A stretch of DNA of 64,000 bases from Streptomonospora salina. GTDB taxonomy: Bacteria; Actinomycetota; Actinomycetes; Streptosporangiales; Streptosporangiaceae. The stretch is from assembly GCF_014204715.1 (NCBI RefSeq), contig NZ_JACHLY010000001.1:2998501-3062500 (forward strand), given 5' to 3'. Below are positions 5,571 to 61,609 of the stretch, in pieces. The position numbers were made by a program, and so were the translations under genes. Each line of letters begins with the position of its first letter. Positions within the stretch are counted from its first letter, which is position 1. The notes under the pieces were generated by a model. The model was not told the DNA's origin. It was given only the letters and a program-made list of their open reading frames with translations, and did no database searches.

Positions 5571-6218
5571 ATGAACGGTCTGCTCGAAGCCTCCCTCGCT
5601 TTTCCCACGGTCCTGTTCAGCTTCCTGCTGCTGGTGGTCGTCGGCTACTGGCTGTTCGTCGTCCTGGGCGCCGTCGACACCGACATCCTCGACTTCGACG
5701 CCGAACTCGACTCCGGCTCCGCCGGCGGGCTCGGCGGTGCGCTCGGGGCGGTCGGCCTCGGCGGCGTCCCGGTGACCGTGGTGCTGTCGCTGATGATCGC
5801 GGTGGCCTGGTTCGTGAGCCTGGTGGGAACCGTGCTGATCGATTCGCTGTCCGACACGTCGCCGCTGATGATCGCGTTGGGTCTGGTGGTCCTGGTCGCG
5901 GCCGTGGTCATCGCCTGGGGCGTCACCAGCGCGATCGCGATGGGCGTACGCGCGTTCCTGCCACCCGAGCGCCAGAGCCGCGGGGCCGACTTCGTCGGCC
6001 GGACCTGCGTGGTGCGCACCGGCCGGGTCGACCGGGACTTCGGCCAAGCCGAGATCTCCGCCGGCGAGGGCTCGTCGTCGCTGATCGAGGTCCGCACCAT
6101 CGGCGACGAGCGGCTGACGTCGGGAAGCACGGCGCTGATCTTCGACTACGACGCCGACGCCGGCGTCTACCGCGTCACCCCGTTCGACTCCGCGCTCGAC
6201 CCCGGTTCGCCGGACTGA
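5571..6218 (+). CDS. YqiJ-like (NfeD/OB-fold) membrane protein
   Basis: The 215-residue product has an N-terminal hydrophobic segment (about 10-35), two more membrane segments (about 65-90 and 95-122), then a soluble C-terminal beta-rich domain from about 140 (GRTCVVRTGRVDRDFGQAEI). That domain resembles the OB-fold domain of NfeD/YqiJ proteins. Length and layout match E. coli YqiJ (about 209 residues), the partner of the flotillin YqiK. A YqiK-type flotillin follows at 7473, with one oxidoreductase gene between. Family knowledge suggests a role in organising flotillin membrane microdomains; direct function is unproven. Confidence 0.75.
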   Translation: MNGLLEASLAFPTVLFSFLLLVVVGYWLFVVLGAVDTDILDFDAELDSGSAGGLGGALGAVGLGGVPVTVVLSLMIAVAWFVSLVGTVLIDSLSDTSPLMIALGLVVLVAAVVIAWGVTSAIAMGVRAFLPPERQSRGADFVGRTCVVRTGRVDRDFGQAEISAGEGSSSLIEVRTIGDERLTSGSTALIFDYDADAGVYRVTPFDSALDPGSPD

Positions 6219-12500: not shown

Positions 12501-14532
12501 CCACGACGCCGCGCTGCTGCTGGGGGCGCTGCTGCGCCTGTACGCGGACGCCGACCTGCTGCGCTATCCGGCGCCGGCCCGCGCGGCCGCCCAGGTCTTC
12601 TGGGCGTTCGGCGCCGGGGAGGACGCCAAAGCGGCCTGGTCCACCCGGGCCGCGTCGCTGGCGCGTGCGCGCGCCGCCTTCGGCGGGCACCGCTCGCCGG
12701 CGATCGACGTGCTGTGCGCCGAACTGGACCGGGCGGTGGCGGCGTTCCTGCCCGAGGCCGGGTTGGAGCGGGCGTTCGAGGACACCGATTCGGCGGGGGA
12801 GTACCTGTTCGAGGAGCTGGCCCACGGCGGCGGGTTCGTCACCGCTGCGGGGGCGCGCACGCTGCTGGACCGGTTCCGCCGCGCCCTGGGCCCCACGGCG
12901 GCCGCCGCGCGGCAGGACTTCGAGCGCGACGTGCGGTCCCTGGACGGCGACCCGGCAGCACGCCACCAGTTGGTGCACGCGTGGCTGGAGTCCTACCTGG
13001 CGTCCTCGGGCGCCGAGGCGGGACCCGACCTGGTCGAGGCGGCGGCGGTCGAACTGTGCGGTTCGGCACTGGACCGCCGCGACTCCGCGGCCGAGCTGAG
13101 TACCGGGGTCACCGGGCTGCTGGGGACCCACCCGCGCATCGCCGAGCGCCGGGCCGTGCTGCGCCTGGACGAGGTGCTGGCGCGGGTGCGCCGCTTCCGC
13201 ACCGAGCGCGTCCCGGCTTTCCGCGACTACCAGCGCCGCCGCCACGAGCTGGTGGCGCGCGAACGCGCCCGGCTGCGGCTGGAGGAGTACCGGCCCGCGG
13301 TGATGAGCGGGTTCGTGCGCAACCGGCTGCTGGACGAGGTCTACCTCCCGCTGATCGGCGACAACCTCGCCAAGCAGATCGGCGCGTCGGGCGAGGACAA
13401 GCGCACCGACCAGTCGGGCCTGCTGCTGCTGATCTCGCCGCCGGGGTACGGCAAGACAACACTGATGGAGTACGTGGCCAGCCGGCTCGGCCTGGTGTTC
13501 GTCAAGGTCGACGGGCCGTCGCTGGGGCAGTCGGTCACGTCGCTGGATCCGGCCGAGGCCCCCGACGCGACGGCGCGCCGGGAGGTCGAGAAGATCAACT
13601 TCGCACTGGAGATGGGCGGCAACACCCTGCTGTACCTGGACGACATCCAGCACACCGACCCGGAGCTGCTGCAGAAGTTCATCTCGCTGTGCGACGGCCA
13701 GCGGCGCATGGAAGGCGTCTGGGAGGGCCGCACCCGCACCTACGACCTCCGGGGCAAGCGGTTCGCGGTGTGCATGGCCGGCAACCCCTACACCGAGCAG
13801 GGCAGCCGGTTCCGGGTGCCGGACATGCTGGCCAACCGCGCCGACGTCTACAACCTGGGCGACGTGCTCTCGGGCCGGGACGAGTCGTTCGCGCTGAGCT
13901 ACATCGAGAACGCGCTGACGTCCAACCCGGTGCTGGCCCCGTTGTCCACCCGTGAGCGCGGCGACGTCGAACTGCTGGTGCGCATGGCCGACGGCGACGA
14001 GTCGGTGCGCGCCGACCGGCTCTCCCATCCCTACTCCGCGGTGGAGCTGGAGCAGATCCGGGCGGTGCTGGCCACGCTTCTGCGCATGCAGCGGGTGGTG
14101 CTGGCCGTCAACCGGGCCTACATCGCATCGGCGGCCCAGGCCGAGGAGTCGCGGACCGAGCCGCCGTTCCGGCTGCAGGGCTCCTACCGCAACATGAACC
14201 GGCTGGCGGAGAAGGCGGTGCCGGTGATGAACGACGCCGAGCTGGAGGCGGCGATCGACGACCACTACCGGGGCGAGGCTCAGACACTGACCTCCGGAGC
14301 CGAAGCCAACCTGCTCAAGCTGGGGGAGCTGCGGGGCACGCTCACCGCCGAGCAGGCCCGGCGCTGGGAGGAGGTCAAATCCGCCTACGTCCGCGCCAAG
14401 GCACTGGGCGGCGAGGGCGACGATCCGGTGAACCGCGCGGTGGGCGCTGTGGGGATGCTGGCCGACCGGGTCGGCGCGGTCGAGACGGCCATCGGGCGCG
14501 CCGCCGACCGGATGCGCCCCGGCGGCGGCTGA
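9514..14532 (+). CDS. Giant AAA+ ATPase of the 'DNA repair ATPase' family
   Basis: The product is 1672 residues. The N-terminal two thirds (about 20-1200) match the layout of the DUF3686-type 'DNA repair ATPase' N-terminal region, with beta-rich blocks (for example VEVFGGNELTLAGTARIRTA) followed by long coiled coils (about 530-880). An AAA module starts near residue 1280, with Walker A SPPGYGKTT near 1308 and Walker B NTLLYLDDIQ near 1368. The family name is historical; the biochemical role is not established. Placement directly after a flotillin gene is known for this family and suggests a membrane-anchored ATP-driven assembly. The GTG at 9514 is the only sensible start after the flotillin stop. 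Confidence 0.85.
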   Translation: MTDAATGGSAEPDPPPSSPAGDIDAGTYEVLRSRLSGQAKELARRAEQLNSRRVEVFGGNELTLAGTARIRTADNCVPRDIVSVGGHMLFGYNASAGLKPETRVGDVFSLHTFVRESEDGSGAFRFDDAESVPELLADPQFERDFGELYRYYRETRLMQLRRVEEKLLAVFQTGPRTADVRVLRWDVRADGSIGYLDNRGERDHVFPSPYDFEWIPTTRDDHVQGRHPHISVLGELFVETVGGTLTVKVVNDTETGEGIYSEPVDERLQSLADAEVSYARIGALILLRVLPYNESQARHLVFNTRTADVVRLDGIGRACRRLPDDQGIVFPGGYYLSTGAVKTFDTDLQELEFEKAVRSPNGEDVLYVFHARREGRSLLLPYNVIRKEVAAPIPCHGYCLFDDGTLAVFRAVSDEPTRVHPVQVWRTPYVSDDYAAAQPVGSGPLERVGNAELVRGVSDFLSVARMVEEMTPSTAVFEALIANCRRAGDHYPWIGDPELGGLDEPLGEVRATAEQVLDEFEKAQELTAQAEKAVAEAAEQVASLVRRSRGEMPRSAPAWVSRLSELRRAQGRLVTLREMRHVDTGRVEELDSELAAELTDAGKRAVEFLQGEDAFTGYHTEVDRLVADAEAITAVAEAAQVAERIAEQTEGLETVTEVVGSLEIADARVRTSILERVGEVLGGVNRARATLEARRGELLDAEGRAEFAAEFALLGQAVTGALAAADSPDRCDEQLGRLMLQLENLESRFAEFDEFLDELSAKRDDVYEAFSARKQSLLDERARRADRLVESAERVLSTVTRRVAALDSLDEVNTYFASDAMVAKLRSSAGELRELGDTVRAEELEGRLKAAREEAGRSLRDRVDLYDGGDTIRLGRHRFAVNNQPLDLTLVPGEGGMALSITGTDFRMPVTDPDFLATRALWEQSVVSESPEVYRAEYLAVSLLLDAESGAGATPLSELHRAAAQGGEDAGAGLLPVVRAAAEERYDEGYERGVHDHDAALLLGALLRLYADADLLRYPAPARAAAQVFWAFGAGEDAKAAWSTRAASLARARAAFGGHRSPAIDVLCAELDRAVAAFLPEAGLERAFEDTDSAGEYLFEELAHGGGFVTAAGARTLLDRFRRALGPTAAAARQDFERDVRSLDGDPAARHQLVHAWLESYLASSGAEAGPDLVEAAAVELCGSALDRRDSAAELSTGVTGLLGTHPRIAERRAVLRLDEVLARVRRFRTERVPAFRDYQRRRHELVARERARLRLEEYRPAVMSGFVRNRLLDEVYLPLIGDNLAKQIGASGEDKRTDQSGLLLLISPPGYGKTTLMEYVASRLGLVFVKVDGPSLGQSVTSLDPAEAPDATARREVEKINFALEMGGNTLLYLDDIQHTDPELLQKFISLCDGQRRMEGVWEGRTRTYDLRGKRFAVCMAGNPYTEQGSRFRVPDMLANRADVYNLGDVLSGRDESFALSYIENALTSNPVLAPLSTRERGDVELLVRMADGDESVRADRLSHPYSAVELEQIRAVLATLLRMQRVVLAVNRAYIASAAQAEESRTEPPFRLQGSYRNMNRLAEKAVPVMNDAELEAAIDDHYRGEAQTLTSGAEANLLKLGELRGTLTAEQARRWEEVKSAYVRAKALGGEGDDPVNRAVGAVGMLADRVGAVETAIGRAADRMRPGGG

Positions 14533-55749: not shown

Positions 55750-56502
55750 CTAGTCGGTGCCTTCGTAGTGGCGGAACTCGTGGGCGAGGAAGTCCAGGAA
55801 GGCGTCGACTTGGGCCGGGTCGTAGCCGGGCCGCGCCCGCGTCGTCGAGAACTTGACGCGGTCCACCTGGGAGCCCGTCAGCGGCGCGCGCTCGGGGTGA
55901 CCGTGAACCAGGGCCTCCAGCGTGGCTTCGGCGCTGTCGAGGAAGGCGTCGACCTCCTCCTCGTGGTAACCGGTGGTGAGCCGGGTCGTGGAGAACTGCT
56001 GGTTGCGGATGTCCTCCGGCCGCAGCGGCGCGCGCCCGGCCTGCGCCGACGGCGGAGGACCGAGGGGGCGGGCCGGCGGGGGCGCGGGGTCCGTCGGAGC
56101 GGGATCCGGTGGAGGAGGCGGCGGGGCGGGCCCGGCGCCGTGCCGCGCGGGCGGCGGTTGCGGCGGTTGCGGCGGTCCGTGCCCGGGCTGCGGACCGATG
56201 GCGGGCCAGGCCGCCTCGGAGGGGTGGATAAGGCCGTGCGCCCGCAGTTCGGCGGCGACGATGTCGAGGAAGGCGTCGACCTCCTGCTCGTCGTATCCGG
56301 GACTCAGGCGTGTAGTCCGGAACTTCGCGTGCTCGACCTCCTCGGCTGTTATGGGCGGCCCGCTGCGCAGGCCCCCTTGGAGGCCCGCGAACGTGGCCTC
56401 CACCCGATCGAGCAGCTGGTCGACGTCATCCTCGTTATAGCCCGGGCGCAAGCGCACCGTGTTGAATTGCTTGTTTCGGATGTCACCGGGTGTCAGAGGC
56501 AT
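55750..56502 (-). CDS. Protein with four DivIVA-like motifs and a proline-rich linker
   Basis: The 250-residue product contains four copies of a DivIVA-domain motif of the form (D/V)IRNKQFNT-xRLRPGYN-xx-VD-x(2)LD: KQFNTVRLRPGYNEDDVDQL (about 11-30), AKFRTTRLSPGYDEQEVDAF, QQFSTTRLTTGYHEEEVDAF and VKFSTTRARPGYDPAQVDAF. Pairs are separated by a linker of about 50 residues rich in Pro/Ala/Gly. No coiled coil follows, so it is not a canonical DivIVA. The ATG at 56502 lies inside direct repeat A; the repeat carries its promoter region and first codons. A membrane-curvature or polar scaffold role is inferred from the motif only. Confidence 0.8.
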   Translation of the reverse strand: MPLTPGDIRNKQFNTVRLRPGYNEDDVDQLLDRVEATFAGLQGGLRSGPPITAEEVEHAKFRTTRLSPGYDEQEVDAFLDIVAAELRAHGLIHPSEAAWPAIGPQPGHGPPQPPQPPPARHGAGPAPPPPPPDPAPTDPAPPPARPLGPPPSAQAGRAPLRPEDIRNQQFSTTRLTTGYHEEEVDAFLDSAEATLEALVHGHPERAPLTGSQVDRVKFSTTRARPGYDPAQVDAFLDFLAHEFRHYEGTD

Positions 56503-56582
56503 GGCTACATTGTGCCGATTCTTCGGCGGACGGTGGGCGAAGGCGCCTCGGTCAGCGTCGTGAACCGGTCCGGCGCCCGCCG
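56477..56582. repeat. Direct repeat A (106 bp) at the left end of the inserted cassette
   Basis: 102 of 106 bases are identical to 59877-59982. It covers the first nine codons of the DivIVA-motif gene and about 80 bp upstream. The two copies are offset by exactly 3400 bp. Confidence 0.95.
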
Positions 56583-56772
56583 TGCGCCCGCCGGCGGCGT
56601 GCGAGGCCACCATGACCGCACGTGGGTGGACCGACGTCGGGTATTACTCGGATACCGGTGTCAGCGGTCGGGATCCCGACGCCACGCCGGTCCGGTTCCA
56701 GCGAGCGTAGGGACGCCGCGCGCGGCGGACGCACAGACGTCGCAGTGGCCATCGCGGGTCTGGAACCTCGTG

Positions 56773-57978
56773 TCATGCCCGGGAGCGGCTCGCGTCCAAA
56801 ACGGCCCGCACCTCCGGCACGTCCCGGAAGTCCGAAAGTCGCGACAGCACCGCGCGGACACGATCCGATGCCCGCGCGGAGGCGACATCGCCGGCCAGCG
56901 CGACCACCCGGGCCGCGACCTCCGCCGCTTGCTCCGGCTCGTTGGCGTCCGCGTAGGCCACGGCTAGCCACGACTCGTACAAGGCCCGCTCCCGCGTGGA
57001 CGTTGCCGGGTAGTCGCGGAGCACGCGAGAGAGTAGCGGGACGGCCCGGAGCGGTCGCCGGAGTTCCGTGTACACCCGCGCGTCCATGACCTCCAGTTCC
57101 GACTCATCTACCCAATAGGCCCAATCGGGAGCGTCCCCGTCGGCTTCCGACAGCGCCTCGTGTGCCTCCGCCAGCGCCCGTACAGCCGCTTGCGCGTCCC
57201 CGGCTTGCGTGTGTGCCCACGCGGCCCGGTCATGGAACAGAGCACGCGTCTTCCCGGGAGCCTCCGGCCCGGCTTCTGCGACGGCCGCAACGGACAGCGC
57301 GACGCCGTCGGCAACGCGGCCGTTGTTGGACCGGTGGTAAGCCAGCGACCCCGCAAGTTGCGCCGCGAGCGGAGCGTCCTCGGCTTCCCGGGCCGCGTCC
57401 AGGCCGAGACGGTATGTCGGCTCCGCGCGCGCGTCCGCCGCGTCGGATGCCACCCAGCCGGCAACCTGTGCCAGTTCCCCGACGGCTCGGAGCAGTTCCC
57501 GCCGGACGGCGTGGCTGTGGGCCGATTCGCGGAGCACGCGAAGGGCCGCGTCCAACTCCCGGAACGCGGGGACGATCACGTCGCCCCCGGCTAGTACATC
57601 GTCGGCAAGCCGCAGGCCGTGCGCACGCGCCGCGAGATCATCCGCCGTCGTCTGGCCGACGCGGCGGCCCGTACGGGACCGGAGCGGCGCGACAGCATCC
57701 CCGGGCGGCAACAGAGCGGCTAGCGTCTCCGGCGGTTCGGGGCCGCTGTCGGCGACGGTGGCGCGCTCAAGCGTCCCTCGTGGAGCTCCCAGCACCTCCG
57801 CGAGCACAGGGAGCCATACGCGCGGGACGCGTTTCCCGCGCTCCCAGCGGGACACGTCGTGCCGCGTCACCGTAGGCCGCTCGGCCGCGGAGCACAGCGC
57901 TTCCGCTAAGCGCGCTTGCGACCATCCCCGGGACTCTCGGAAACGGCGCAGCATCGCGGGAAGCGGTTCGCCGGTCAT
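56773..57978 (-). CDS. XRE-HTH regulator with TPR-like C-terminal domain
   Basis: The 401-residue product has a Cro/C1 HTH at about 8-70 (LRRFRESRGWSQARLAEALC, TVTRHDVSRWERGKRVPRVW), followed by helical repeats resembling TPRs (LAAQLAGSLAYHRSNNGRVA, ALFHDRAAWAHTQAGDAQAA, LYESWLAVAYADANEPEQAA). This architecture is common in actinomycetes, where such proteins sit in accessory modules and may bind peptides or partner proteins through the repeats. It faces away from the small plus-strand genes. The ATG at 57978 immediately precedes the HTH; the longer upstream frame is not needed. Confidence 0.88.
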   Translation of the reverse strand: MTGEPLPAMLRRFRESRGWSQARLAEALCSAAERPTVTRHDVSRWERGKRVPRVWLPVLAEVLGAPRGTLERATVADSGPEPPETLAALLPPGDAVAPLRSRTGRRVGQTTADDLAARAHGLRLADDVLAGGDVIVPAFRELDAALRVLRESAHSHAVRRELLRAVGELAQVAGWVASDAADARAEPTYRLGLDAAREAEDAPLAAQLAGSLAYHRSNNGRVADGVALSVAAVAEAGPEAPGKTRALFHDRAAWAHTQAGDAQAAVRALAEAHEALSEADGDAPDWAYWVDESELEVMDARVYTELRRPLRAVPLLSRVLRDYPATSTRERALYESWLAVAYADANEPEQAAEVAARVVALAGDVASARASDRVRAVLSRLSDFRDVPEVRAVLDASRSRA

Positions 57979-58062
57979 GTCTCCAGTGTGGCCTATGGGC
58001 CCACAGCAGGGCCCACAGTTGGGCACCTCCGCCGCGGCAGTGCGCGCGGGACGCTTGCCGGC

Positions 58063-58313
58063 ATGAACAGTGACACCAGCGACGCGGCGACGCTGGAACG
58101 GCTCAACCGCGAATACCCCTGTGGCGCGTATGGCGCTCCCGCGACGAACGGGGCCGCCCGGCGGCATGGGTGGCCAGCGTCTGCCGGGATGACTCCCTGT
58201 TCGGGCCCACGCTTCACGAGACGACGGCCGAACGGTTGGAAGCCCGGTTACAGCACCCGCCCCGGGCCCGCGGACTGTCCGTGGAAGCGATGCAGCGCGG
58301 GAGTCACGTGTAG
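58063..58313 (+). pseudogene. Small accessory gene, frameshifted at a C run
   Basis: Starts MNSDTSDAATLERLNREYP. At the C4 run (58116-58119) coherent coding continues in another frame: WRVWRSRDERGRPAAWVASV through FGPTLHETTAERLEARLQHP to TAG at 58311. One additional base would give an 83-84-residue protein whose 'LNREYP-x-WRVWR' passage resembles small actinobacterial accessory proteins (LR-x-x-FP-x-W-x-IWR). Either a real frameshift or a sequence error. It is divergent from the XRE-TPR gene. Confidence 0.6.
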
Positions 58314-58497
58314 ACGGCCGCGCGGTCGGCGGTCCGTCCGTGGCCTTCCCACGTCGGCCGTGCGGATTTCCGAAGATTGCCGCATCCGGGCCGCGCGCGG
58401 AGCTGCGGCCCCACGTCGGCCGCGCGGGTACGGGCGGCCCGGGGCCCGGTTGGACACGGCTACGGGTTGACCCTCGTCGGCCGTGTAGACACGGCGG

Positions 58498-58752
58498 TTA
58501 GTCCGGATCCGCTACGTACGTCCCGCGCTGCGGAACCGTGTACGCATCCCCGTCCTGCACGAGCACCGCGATAGCGCGCCGGACCGTTGTCCGTGCAAGT
58601 CCGAACTCCTGTACAAGATCTTTCTCTGTCGCTATGCGCTCGTTTGGTGCCCAGTCTCCGCGAGCGATGCGGGCTCGCAGGATGCCCGCGAGCTGCATAT
58701 ACGGGGTTACCGGTCCCGTCGGATCGATCTCGGCATCGGGGTCGTACGTCAT
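58498..58752 (-). CDS. Minimal GntR-type winged-helix protein (84 aa)
   Basis: The 84-residue product starts MTYDPDAEIDPTGPVTPYMQ. It consists only of a GntR winged helix: LAGILRARIARGDWAPNERI, ATEKDLVQEFGLARTTVRRA, then the wing VPQRGTYVADPD. No effector domain is present. Such short proteins occur in actinobacterial integrative elements and small-gene modules. It is divergent from the tiny-protein gene at 58910 and separated from it by 157 bp containing a promoter with a 14-bp palindrome, its probable operator. Confidence 0.88.
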   Translation of the reverse strand: MTYDPDAEIDPTGPVTPYMQLAGILRARIARGDWAPNERIATEKDLVQEFGLARTTVRRAIAVLVQDGDAYTVPQRGTYVADPD

Positions 58753-58802
58753 AGCTCGAAGCTATTCGCATCAGGTCAAGTCGCTTTCAAGAGATACGCC
58801 GC

Positions 58803-58830
58803 TGGACGTATCGATACGTAGCGCTACACT
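58803..58830 (+). promoter_or_regulatory. Promoter with ACGTATCGATACGT operator for the tiny-protein cassette
   Basis: -35 TGGACG (58803-58808), 16-bp spacer, -10 TACACT (58825-58830). A perfect 14-bp palindrome (58806-58819) overlaps the -35 and spacer. GntR proteins typically bind GT-N-AC type palindromes, so the divergent 84-residue GntR is the likely repressor. Confidence 0.6.
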
Positions 58831-58852
58831 GGGAAGCTCAACCAAAAGCAGA

Positions 58853-58909
58853 GCCCCGGCGGCGATGGTGGTCGCCCCGGGGCCGGACAACCGAAAGGAC
58901 CGGTTGCCA
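58853..58909 (+). promoter_or_regulatory. Two-hairpin leader of the tiny-protein gene at 58910
   Basis: Hairpin 1: GCCCCGG (58853-58859) pairs with 58877-58883, extended inward by GCG/CGC with a bulge. Hairpin 2: AACCG (58889-58893) pairs with CGGTT (58901-58905) around the 7-nt loop AAAGGAC, which is the ribosome-binding sequence. The GTG follows 4 nt later. Same architecture as 533-591 with different stem bases. Confidence 0.5.
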
Positions 58910-59113
58910 GTGAGAATCCTAGTTGGCTTTCTGCACGCGTGCATGCGCCTCGTCCGCCCGTCCCGGGGCCTCCACGCTGCCCCGCGTCACCTCGTCATGG
59001 ACGAGGCCCCCACGCGGCGGGAAGCGCAGCGCGCGGAGCGTGTCGACCGCTCTCGGCTGGACGTCGCGGTGCCGGCCGATATCGCCGCAACCGCCGGGAC
59101 CGGGGTTGCCTGA
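58910..59113 (+). CDS. Tiny protein with RLVRPSRGLHAAP motif (67 aa)
   Basis: The 67-residue product from GTG 58910 starts VRILVGFLHACMRLVRPSRG. Its first 26 residues parallel the 41-residue protein at 592-717 (ILVG-F/L-L ... RLVRPSRGLHAAP). The rest (RHLVMDEAPTRREAQRAERV...) is charged and helical. The purine-rich AAAGGAC lies in the loop of a small hairpin just upstream. Expression is probably controlled by the divergent GntR. Stop and next start are separated by one base. Function unknown; membrane association through the hydrophobic N-terminus is possible. Confidence 0.65.
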   Translation: MRILVGFLHACMRLVRPSRGLHAAPRHLVMDEAPTRREAQRAERVDRSRLDVAVPADIAATAGTGVA

Positions 59114-59114
59114 G

Positions 59115-59444
59115 ATGATCGATTTCACCTGGTATGGCGAATGCACATCCTCCGCCACCCTCGTCTTGGAGGGATACGCCAACGACCCCGGGCACGCGCA
59201 CGGCGCGCTTGTGATGGTGCTCAACGCATGCGCGGCCTGTGCGCAACCGCTCGCGGAGGCGCATATGTGCGACCTGACGGTCTATCGCACGGTTGCGGGC
59301 CGCCCGCGCTCCTGCGGGGACGCGATCCTGTACGACCGCGACGAGGCGGGCCCGGACGGCCCGGCCCCGGCGGCCCCGCTGGCCCCGACTACGGCTCCGG
59401 CCCCGGTGACTACACCGACACCGACGAGGCGGCCCCGGCCGTGA
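59115..59444 (+). CDS. Unrecognised small Cys-containing protein (109 aa)
   Basis: The 109-residue product starts MIDFTWYGECTSSATLVLEG. Its first 75 residues are a compact alpha/beta-looking segment with five cysteines (GECTS, NACAACAQ, HMCDL, SCGDA), followed by a Pro/Ala/Thr-rich tail. The YGEC...GHAHGALVMVLNACAACA pattern is suggestive of a small folded domain, possibly metal-binding; no family recognised. It starts one base after the tiny-protein stop, implying translational coupling. Confidence 0.6.
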   Translation: MIDFTWYGECTSSATLVLEGYANDPGHAHGALVMVLNACAACAQPLAEAHMCDLTVYRTVAGRPRSCGDAILYDRDEAGPDGPAPAAPLAPTTAPAPVTTPTPTRRPRP

Positions 59445-59461
59445 AGGAAGGAGGAATTCCC

Positions 59462-59797
59462 GTGGCTCCCGATATCGAAGACCCGGCCGGAACCCCGGGA
59501 GGCGATCCGGCCGCGTACACCGTGGTCTCCGCCGTCGGCGGGCCGGTGCTCGGCCGCGTGTTGGCCGACGAGGCCGGGGACCGCTGGACCCCCGTGGTCA
59601 CGGTCGCTGGCCGTGACGTGCTCGGCCCGCCGTTCCCCGCCTTCGGGGACGCGGCGCTGTGGGTCTGCGCAAGGCTGACTGTGGTGCTGGACGCGCCGCG
59701 CAGCACGGCAGGGGAAACAAGCCCGCTCTCGGTTCTGGAGCACGGGTATAAGAGGCACGGCGCAATATGGACCAGTGGGTACGAGGGCTACGACTAG
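59462..59797 (+). CDS. Unrecognised small protein, last gene of the cassette (111 aa)
   Basis: The 111-residue product from GTG 59462 starts VAPDIEDPAGTPGGDPAAYT, followed by a beta-rich region (VVSAVGGPVLGRVLADEAGD, RWTPVVTVAGRDVLG) and an amphipathic helix (FGDAALWVCARLTVVLDAP). AAGGAGG lies about 7 nt upstream. No membrane segment or known domain. It ends 63 bp before the right-hand truncated DivIVA copy. Function unknown. Confidence 0.55.
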   Translation: MAPDIEDPAGTPGGDPAAYTVVSAVGGPVLGRVLADEAGDRWTPVVTVAGRDVLGPPFPAFGDAALWVCARLTVVLDAPRSTAGETSPLSVLEHGYKRHGAIWTSGYEGYD

Positions 59798-59860
59798 TCA
59801 CTGGCCGCCGCGAACGAGGGGTCGTCCGGAGCTTCCGGGCGGCCCTTTCGCATGTCCCCA

Positions 59861-59902
59861 TCAGCGCATTCGTATACGGATGTCACCGGGTGTCAGAGGC
59901 AT
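59861..59902 (-). pseudogene. Truncated 5' end of the DivIVA-motif gene (13 codons)
   Basis: Within repeat B the ATG at 59902 reads MPLTPGDIR, identical to the start of the gene at 56502, then diverges to IRMR and stops. It is the leftover of the duplication that accompanied insertion of the cassette. Confidence 0.8.
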
Positions 59903-59982
59903 GGCTACATTGTGCCGATTCTTCGGCGGGCGGTGGGCGAAGGCACCCCGGTCAGCGTCGTGAACCGGTGCGGCGCCCGCCG
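59877..59982. repeat. Direct repeat B (106 bp) at the right end of the inserted cassette
   Basis: Counterpart of repeat A with four substitutions. It ends about 25 bp from the stop of the second DivIVA-motif gene (60007). Confidence 0.95.
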
Positions 59983-60006: not shown

Positions 60007-60594
60007 TCAATCCGGCCCCGGCCCCGGCCCGCTTTCCAGCTCGGCGCAGACGGCGTCGACGGCGGCGTCGACCTGGGCGCGGTCGTAGCCGCGCAGGGCC
60101 CTGGGCAGTGCGCCGCGGCGTTCGCGCAGGCGCGCGGCCGCGGCGCGGGCCCGATCCGTGTCGCTCTCGCCGCTGCGCAGCGCCTCCAGCTCCGCGGTCC
60201 CCGCGTCGAGCAGCTCCACCGCGGCGGCCGCGTGGTAGCCGCGCAGCACCCGGTCGAAGGCGGGCTCCGGCGGCTGCAGCGCCGGTTCCGGCGCCTGCGG
60301 GGCGGGCTCTTCGCCGTGCACCTCCGCCAGGCGGGTCAGCAGGAGGTCGAAGGCGGTGTGCACGTGGCCGCGGTCGTAGCCGCGCAGCACGACGTCGAAC
60401 GCGGCCCTTTCGCGCGCCTGGGCGGGTGTGACGGCGCCGTCGGCGGCGGGATCGGCGATACTGCGCTGCATCGTCTCCAGCAGCGTAAGGACCTGGGCAC
60501 GGTCGTAGCCCCGCAGGACCGCGTCGAATTCGAGCCGAAGTTCGGACACGTCCCGCTGATGGCCGACCGGGAATTCGGGGGATAAATCGGTCAT
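60007..60594 (-). CDS. Protein with four LRGYD-type DivIVA-like repeats
   Basis: The 195-residue product from ATG 60594 starts MTDLSPEFPVGHQRDVSELR. It carries four copies of a motif F-D-x-VLRGYDRAQV: FDAVLRGYDRAQVLTLLETM, FDVVLRGYDRGHVHTAFDLL, FDRVLRGYHAAAAVELLDAG and LPRALRGYDRAQVDAAVDAV. The pattern corresponds to the 'GY-xx-xxVD' core of DivIVA domains as in the gene at 56502, but with a different consensus, so the two genes are distinct relatives. A GATAAT box 6 nt before the ATG suggests a leaderless message. The two genes were probably adjacent before the cassette inserted. Confidence 0.75.
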   Translation of the reverse strand: MTDLSPEFPVGHQRDVSELRLEFDAVLRGYDRAQVLTLLETMQRSIADPAADGAVTPAQARERAAFDVVLRGYDRGHVHTAFDLLLTRLAEVHGEEPAPQAPEPALQPPEPAFDRVLRGYHAAAAVELLDAGTAELEALRSGESDTDRARAAAARLRERRGALPRALRGYDRAQVDAAVDAVCAELESGPGPGPD

Positions 60595-60700
60595 TGTGCG
60601 ATTATCGGGCATCGTTCGGCGGCGCGGAACCCGTCGAGGTGTCCGGAACCGGGCACACGTCCGTCCGGCCCGCGTCAGGACCGCGGCGGCTAGGCCCTGT

Positions 60701-61609
60701 TTAAGAAGGTGTCGTTGCGAGGTCGCGCAGCCAGATGTCGATCACCGCGACCTGGACCGTGGCCTCGTAGCGCAGGGCGAGCTTGTCGTAGCGCGTGGCC
60801 ACCGCGCGGAACTGCTTGAGCCGCCCGATCCCGCACTCCACCGCGTGGCGGTCTCGATAGGCCCGGGCATCGAAGGCCGGCGGGCGGCCGCCCGCCGGCC
60901 CCTTCGCCCGGCGGTGGGCCCGCTGGTCGGCCGGTTCGGCGATGGTCGCGGGGATCTTCCTGCGCCGCAGGTAGGCGCGGTTGGCCCGCGAAGAGTAGGC
61001 CTTGTCGGCCAGCACCCGGTCGGGCCGGGTGCGCGGGCGCCCCGGCCCGCACCGGCCGATGCGGATCCCGCCGAGGACCCGCGCAAACTGCGGGCTGTCG
61101 CCGCTCTGCCCGGCCCCCGCGACCACCGACAGCGGCTTGCGGCCCTGCTCGCAGGCCAGGTGGAGCTTGGTGCCCCACCCGCCGCGCGAGCGTCCCAGCG
61201 CGTGGTCGGCGGGCTCGGGACCGGGCGGCTCGACCTGGTCCTGGGGGGTGCGGCGGGCGCCGGCGGCGTGGGGGTGGGCCCGGCACGTCGTGGAATCGAC
61301 CGAGACCGTCCATTCCACCAGCCCGGCCGCATCGGCCCAGGCCTGCAGCTTGGCCGCGATCAGCGCCCAGATCCCGGCGCGCTGCCAGGCCCGCAGCAGG
61401 TGGTAGACCGATTGCCAGTGGCCGTAGCGTTCGGGCACGTCGCGCCAGGGGGCACCCAGGCGGGTGCGCCAGCGGATGCCGTCCAGCAGTTGCCGGCGAG
61501 TCCACGTGGCCGGTCTCCCGCTGCGGCTGCTGCGGGGCAGCAGCGGTTCCAGGACACGCCACTGGTTGTCGGTGAGGTCTTTGCGTCCTCCGATCGATAC
61601 CCTGGCCAC
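60701..61609 (-). CDS. IS5-family DDE transposase
   Basis: The 302-residue product has the N-terminal DUF4096-like region (LTDNQWRVLEPLLPRSSRSG, LLDGIRWRTRLGAPWRDVPE) and a DDE catalytic domain: first Asp in TVSVDSTTCRAH, second in RVLADKAYSS, and Glu in HAVECGIGRLKQFRAVATRY. All three acidic residues are present, so the enzyme should be active. A single uninterrupted frame is used; no frameshift is needed. The GTG start at 61609 lies 2 nt from a strong hairpin, likely limiting expression by read-through transcripts. Confidence 0.93.
   Translation of the reverse strand: MARVSIGGRKDLTDNQWRVLEPLLPRSSRSGRPATWTRRQLLDGIRWRTRLGAPWRDVPERYGHWQSVYHLLRAWQRAGIWALIAAKLQAWADAAGLVEWTVSVDSTTCRAHPHAAGARRTPQDQVEPPGPEPADHALGRSRGGWGTKLHLACEQGRKPLSVVAGAGQSGDSPQFARVLGGIRIGRCGPGRPRTRPDRVLADKAYSSRANRAYLRRRKIPATIAEPADQRAHRRAKGPAGGRPPAFDARAYRDRHAVECGIGRLKQFRAVATRYDKLALRYEATVQVAVIDIWLRDLATTPS

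Follow-up and report, generated by a model that had tools for sequence, protein, structure and literature searches.

Cis-mobilizable elements (CIMEs) and actinomycete integrative and conjugative elements (AICEs) are among the closest described systems to a 3.3-kb cassette (cassette 1, 56583-59876) of Streptomonospora salina, which lies between two near-identical direct repeats in a 64-kb stretch of contig NZ_JACHLY010000001.1 (the window). Statements on published systems refer to the parts of the cited sources that were at hand. According to PMC5704250, CIMEs have lost their integration and transfer genes and have kept the attachment (att) sites attL and attR. In Streptomyces, XSAM1 beside pSAM2 is an example (PMC4891641), as is the TR1 case of plant-pathogenic Streptomyces (PMC8369830). 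Cassette 1 resembles a CIME in its attL/attR-like repeats (102 of 106 positions identical, with an empty site in 5/5 congeners, i.e. the five other Streptomonospora genomes, G001-G005), which would stem from site-specific recombination. It is also CIME-like in that no integration or transfer gene was found among its called open reading frames (ORFs) or by a six-frame PF00589 search. It differs in its size of only 3.3 kb, in its position at the 5' end of a coding gene and in having no tandem integrative and conjugative element in the flanks read. As for its ancestry, the regulators fit AICEs, yet a relative of the gene module lies near a phage capsid gene. Altogether, cassette 1 is probably what remains of a site-specific integrative element after loss of its integrase, still bounded by att sites and of the CIME or defective-AICE type.

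Some Frankia AICEs carry GntR regulators, related to KorSA, the repressor of pSAM2 replication and transfer, together with large NsdA-like XRE regulators (PMC3218068). According to PMC9513070, Streptomyces AICEs have repeats of 2-94 nt, with 14 of 51 insertions in coding genes, their families include members with different integrases at different sites, and defective AICEs retain traB flanked by direct repeats. Judged against these accounts, cassette 1 has repeats near the upper size limit given there, GntR and NsdA-like XRE regulators and a complete AICE in the same genome, but no int, rep or tra gene was found in it, nor the traB of defective AICEs. Genomic islands associated with dusA are inserted at the 5' end of a coding gene, the 5' part of which is replaced by island sequence, and they have an integrase and 21-bp semiconserved att sequences (PMC4482086). 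Cassette 1 is likewise found at a coding gene 5' end, where synteny puts the native upstream region beside the neighbouring gene (gene B). Unlike in the islands described there, its target is not dusA and it contains no PF00589 hit. From phage satellites with capsid genes it differs in that no integrase, capsid or packaging gene was found in it.

Cassette 1 most likely belongs to a known kind of integrase-less remnant, its striking traits being the sister cassette in the same genome and the 5'-end target. Two such sister remnants, one at the 5' start of a coding gene and the other at the 3' end of an unrelated one, in a genome whose integrase-bearing AICE serves as an internal control, would offer a clean case for integrase shedding with the target gene intact, and for residual stub mobility. 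They also make the start of a DivIVA gene and the 3' end of a GNAT gene candidate attB sites in the genus Streptomonospora. Among the papers listed by literature searches, none was found to describe this cassette pair, as judged by titles and the beginnings of abstracts.

Insertion at the start of a DivIVA-domain gene

Coordinates are window positions unless prefixed with C1 (the contig of the S. salina genome, G000) or L (a fetched stretch). The direct repeats at 56477-56582 (repeat A) and 59877-59982 (repeat B) are identical at 102 of 106 positions, with an offset of 3400 bp. Positions 1-53 are identical and the four mismatches (56530, 56545, 56548 and 56570) all fall in the second half. The best ungapped 106-mer match at an offset of at least 106 in the 8.5 kb around the site equals 102, compared to only 57-59 of 106 in first-order Markov controls (n=8), by which a chance origin of the repeats was rejected. 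Repeat A consists of 26 coding bases (8.7 codons) of gene A, the start codon of which is at 56502, and 80 upstream bases. An earlier note on this DNA, made from the sequence, had described these repeats and their offset, the overlap of repeat A with the start of an intact DivIVA-motif gene, the 13-codon stump after repeat B and the relatedness of the two outside genes. Alignment, translation and the PF05103 matches of both genes (3.4e-26 and 2.9e-7) agree with each of these. The search for the 106-bp sequence elsewhere, which the note had suggested, yielded only two matches at E <= 0.001 in the 5.6-Mb genome.

A 221-bp query spanning repeat A was used against the congener genomes. It gave one match at the DivIVA locus in each of them (5/5), with the cassette absent; additional matches of 26-45 bases were found elsewhere in G003, G004 and G005. 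The matched parts of genes A and B are about 0.13-0.24 kb apart in G001-G004, and in G005 they are separated by 1.5 kb of unrelated repetitive sequence (L016 3040-4580) in which no gene was recognised. Genes A and B are thus neighbours without the insert, as had been predicted. Since a single repeat copy without the cassette is present in all five congeners, cassette 1 is a real insertion, which left its target gene intact. In a family sample of 200 genomes, the same query matched 49 (S. salina included), some with short matches only. Twenty-five loci were tested for a second gene A start: those of the five congeners and 20 from beyond the genus, where 43 genomes had matched. None had one, and the arrangement with both repeats in all relatives, named in the earlier note as the opposing case, did not occur; other repeats are present inside DivIVA genes and elsewhere.

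An assembly duplication is unlikely because the four flanks all differ, the contig is 5.07 Mb long and the genome has, at a distance of 1.4 Mb, another cassette built in the same way. A tRNA-targeted insertion was rejected since the window contains no tRNA. The features of the locus are as follows.

55750..56502, minus strand: gene A, intact DivIVA-domain protein of 250 amino acids (aa) from MPLTPGDIR; PF05103 3.4e-26 (scanned from 56538)
56477..56582, no strand: repeat A, att-like junction with the first 26 coding bases of gene A and 80 upstream bases; its gene-distal part was probably brought by the element
56773..57978, minus strand: NsdA-family XRE/TPR-like regulator, 401 aa; NF053720 3.9e-67; 79% aa identity to a Nocardiopsis eucommiae plasmid protein
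58063..58313, plus strand: small ORF divergent from the regulator, in two pieces in different frames; a frameshift is suggested by eye
58498..58752, minus strand: small GntR-type regulator, 84 aa; PF00392 1.1e-13
58910..59113, plus strand: 67-aa protein; 49% identity (E 2e-5) to the 67-aa-like protein of cassette 2
59115..59444, plus strand: 109-aa protein; relatives in cassette 2, G001 and G053
59441..59797, plus strand: 118-aa protein; 88% identical paralogue in cassette 2
59576..59797, plus strand: tract shared by cassettes 1 and 2 (221 of 222 bases identical), which extends to the stop codon of the 118-aa gene
59861..59902, minus strand: stump of the gene A start, 13 codons (MPLTPGDIRIRMR and a stop), by translation
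59877..59982, no strand: repeat B, att-like junction with the displaced gene start; its gene-distal part continues into the native intergenic region and gene B (congener synteny)
60007..60612, minus strand: gene B, DivIVA-domain protein and native neighbour of gene A; PF05103 2.9e-7; adjacent to gene A in congeners

From the end of repeat A, cassette 1 thus carries the NsdA-family regulator, the frameshifted-looking small ORF, the 84-aa GntR regulator and the co-directional 67-, 109- and 118-aa genes. These last three encode proteins with no significant Pfam or NCBIfam match, and neither piece of the small ORF has a relative in the fetched loci. The claim that no integrase lies inside was borne out by Pfam scans of the called ORFs and by the six-frame PF00589 search of the genome. 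No int, rep or tra gene was found in 56583-59876, serine recombinases and tra genes being sought only among called ORFs, and no FtsK/TraB-type family appeared among the cassette 1 ORFs scanned. Capsid, terminase and serine recombinase families had no match in either cassette (Pfam scans of called ORFs). Base composition does not distinguish cassette 1 (0.708 vs 0.715). Promoter and terminator scans gave nothing exceeding shuffles, and no known RNA family was found at the gathering threshold. Outside the cassette, an IS5-family transposase gene (60701-61609; NF033580, 1.5e-71) lies beside gene B, about 0.7 kb past repeat B.

A sister cassette in a GNAT gene and a resident AICE

Cassette 2 (3.4 kb, C1:1644799-1648379) was found via the 88% identical paralogue of the 118-aa protein, located at C1:1645008-1645352. 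The earlier note had suggested looking for the cassette elsewhere; cassette 2 is a relative of the same anatomy, 1.4 Mb away and inserted in a GNAT gene. Its direct repeats (1644799-1644897 and 1648281-1648379, 97 of 99 positions identical) correspond to the 3' end of a gene for a GNAT acetyltransferase (PF00583). Copy 1 completes the GNAT gene with a new, element-borne 3' end, and copy 2 is the displaced native end. The gene following this native end (YqeY-like by eye) has the same place in G001 and G005; similarity to G002-G004 does not extend past the GNAT gene, so the downstream region differs there. All five congeners have a single full-length match to the GNAT site, four of them also with short matches elsewhere. 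Among 341 family genomes, the site was matched in 183, with two copies only in S. salina, although the underlying table scored two candidates per genome and a diverged second copy could be missed.

From the 118-aa end, cassette 2 encodes the 118-, 109- and 67-aa proteins, a divergent GntR regulator and an NsdA-family regulator (6.3e-30), followed by 80-aa and 74-aa proteins. Cassettes 1 and 2 hence share the gene order 118-109-67-GntR-NsdA and are nearly equal in size. Identity between their 109-aa proteins is only 35%, yet the final 222 bases of the 118-aa gene agree at 221 positions, which suggests that the two elements, or their sources, exchanged DNA recently. An integrase was not found in cassette 2 either, based on Pfam scans of its ORFs and on the genome-wide PF00589 hits given below. 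The 74-aa protein (L060 12975-13199) is a helix-turn-helix (HTH) protein of which the N-terminus, YLRLSKDS, resembles the start of a serine recombinase by eye; its Pfam matches are to HTH and sigma-factor families only. Just past cassette 2, at L060 13905-14859 (C1 ~1648904-1649858), lies a third, degenerate GntR and 67-aa-like module, in which the 67-aa-like frame looks broken.

The six-frame search of the S. salina genome gave 17 PF00589 hits (E <= 1e-5), covered by fifteen stretches; none of them lies inside cassette 1 or 2. In one stretch (L139), XRE, FtsK-like, RepSA and tyrosine Int genes are found between repeats in tRNA-Phe (C1:2273343-2283171), and by this predicted int/rep/tra set the element is an AICE. 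Its repeats are 95/99 identical and 9730 bp apart; therefore, repeats of about 100 bp with few mismatches are the trace of at least one complete element in this genome. No significant similarity was detected among the att sequences of cassette 1, cassette 2 and this AICE. Weak GntR matches occur in three of the 15 integrase stretches.

Origin of the cassettes

As the best reading, both cassettes would derive from AICE- or phage-satellite-type elements, inserted by a tyrosine integrase that is now lost. In the case of cassette 1, the attP of such an ancestor would have mimicked about 100 bp of the gene A start and recombined with the chromosomal attB, with the crossover within the 53-bp identical block. 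Gene A would have retained its body, start codon and first codons and gained an element-borne upstream region, the native upstream region being moved beside gene B together with the 13-codon stump. Integration, replication and transfer genes would have been lost afterwards, leaving a regulatory end with the small GntR regulator (for which a KorSA-like role is presumed), the NsdA-family XRE regulator and three small proteins. We infer the tyrosine integrase because of the long gene-mimicking repeats and the AICE with the same signature in the genome, and the later deletion of int, rep and tra because these genes are present in the carriers of such regulators that have been described; the present immobility and the gene functions are putative as well. 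That the element integrated at a gene start and restored the gene, as proposed in the earlier note, is supported by the empty sites in 5/5 congeners, by the GNAT-gene cassette and by the AICE with its 99-bp repeats. On the same grounds, a derived integrative element is the better of the two options that the note had offered. For the other, a cassette moved in trans, there is no positive evidence, given that the att sequences are dissimilar and no helper was seen at the two sites in the genomes examined.

Several points weigh against this origin. No fragment of an int, rep or tra gene was recognised in either cassette, so that regulators and repeats are what the case for AICE descent is built on. 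The vast majority of tyrosine-integrase AICEs lie in tRNA 3' ends (PMC3218068), which speaks against the usual kind of AICE here, the 5' end of a coding gene being an unusual site. The AICE control is a single element. Of the remaining integrase stretches, L150 has a 219-bp direct repeat pair of 80% identity (5901-6117 and 12650-12865), 6.7 kb apart, which spans a PF00589 hit; the others contain tandem arrays, other repeats or nothing, and no near-identical pair of about 100 bp. The 118-, 109- and 67-aa proteins have no match at E <= 1e-3 in the 15 stretches. By eye, the congener vote on which half of the four mismatches is native was clear at one, split at one and undecided at two. Finally, another genome (G028) has a stretch of about 9 kb (L064 1384-10606) with a large serine recombinase (PF07508), a phage capsid gene (PF05065) and then a module of GntR, 67-aa-like and 118-aa-like proteins. 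The GntR and 118-aa-like members were recognised by sequence match, and the 67-aa-like and an 80-aa-like protein by eye. Because of this neighbourhood, the ancestor of the cassettes may have been a phage or a satellite.

The G028 stretch also argues for an insertion by a serine recombinase, with the cassettes as remnants of a phage satellite or prophage-like element and not of an AICE. This is considered doubtful, because serine recombinases leave only short identical cores, not repeats of 99-106 bp. Moreover, that stretch is not bracketed by a near-identical pair of about 100 bp (its spanning pairs are one of 134 bp with 74% identity and pairs of 28 bp), and neither cassette matched a family of capsids, terminases or serine recombinases. 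That the two cassettes are nearly equal in size and share their gene order, with an integrase found in neither, would also be expected of non-autonomous mini-elements, which would be complete minimal elements of att sites and a regulatory cargo, would borrow the integrases of other elements and would never have been larger here. The 221/222 tract, suggesting recent exchange between the cassettes or their sources, fits such mobility, and some of the 17 PF00589 hits are possible helpers. This explanation is nevertheless unlikely: a single helper for both cassettes is improbable since their att sequences and that of the AICE lack significant similarity, and among the genomes examined, the cassette was seen at the same position in S. 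salina only and a helper at neither of the two sites. Equally doubtful is the broader proposal that the two cassettes represent a family of compact, naturally integrase-free elements, in which a regulatory module between gene-mimicking att sites would be carried to different coding genes by the integrases of co-resident elements, much as transposases carry miniature inverted-repeat transposable elements.

A remnant left by a tyrosine integrase is also to be compared with origins that need no site-specific recombination. Campbell-type homologous integration of a circular DNA bearing a host-gene fragment would, by reasoning, likewise duplicate about 100 bp and leave element-borne sequence in one copy. 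Two such events with unrelated host fragments of 99 and 106 bp, each leaving the gene intact, would however be needed, and the repeats of the resident AICE have the same length, which makes this very improbable. Transposition of an insertion sequence (IS), or a repair-generated tandem duplication followed by DNA capture, could be suspected from the IS5-family gene near repeat B. This is the least credible explanation: that IS lies outside the repeats, target duplications of the IS5 family comprise a few bases, and by eye no transposase was recognised in the ORF list around cassette 2, for which no dedicated scan was made.

Relatives of the module in other genomes

A profile of the 109-aa protein gave strong matches in S. 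salina (two), G001 and G053 and weak ones in three genomes among the 341 of the family, and among 345 genomes of the class it matched S. salina only at E <= 0.001. In G001, a partial module fills a 1.7-kb gap without repeats around it; the matched parts of the flanking genes are about 0.1 kb apart in S. salina. A further candidate relative (L062, G216) was dropped because its match to the 109-aa protein contains two stop codons; the long frames there resemble ordinary genes by eye. When contigs were searched for related GntR regulators, a first scan gave none and a second gave five loci, including that of G001; in none of the five is the module enclosed by near-identical repeats. In three Nocardiopsis loci, the related GntR gene is 1.6-2.6 kb from a tRNA-Ser gene. 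Glycomyces fuscus (L168 6716-8350) has pieces of such a tRNA only, in the form of a 104-bp repeat pair (88%) that holds a tRNA-Ser 3' piece, about 1.5 kb apart and bracketing about 1.4 kb, and ARAGORN detected no complete tRNA there. Based on these contexts and that of G028, the module appears next to integrative elements of more than one kind.

Among viral contigs, there was no exact match to two att patterns and no relative of the 118-aa protein, and the regulator had no phage match. Neither the 118-aa nor the 109-aa protein matched plasmids, nor did the att stretch. On the DNA level, cassette 1 matched two plasmid records, both at regulator genes, and cassette 2 matched three over 2-5% of its length, two of these being annotated as GNAT genes. 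As a separate observation in the integrase stretches of S. salina, arrays of repeats of about 28-30 bp with a 61-bp spacing, resembling clustered regularly interspaced short palindromic repeats, are present at L148 2299-4410, L144 11106-12610 and L150 11035-11864.

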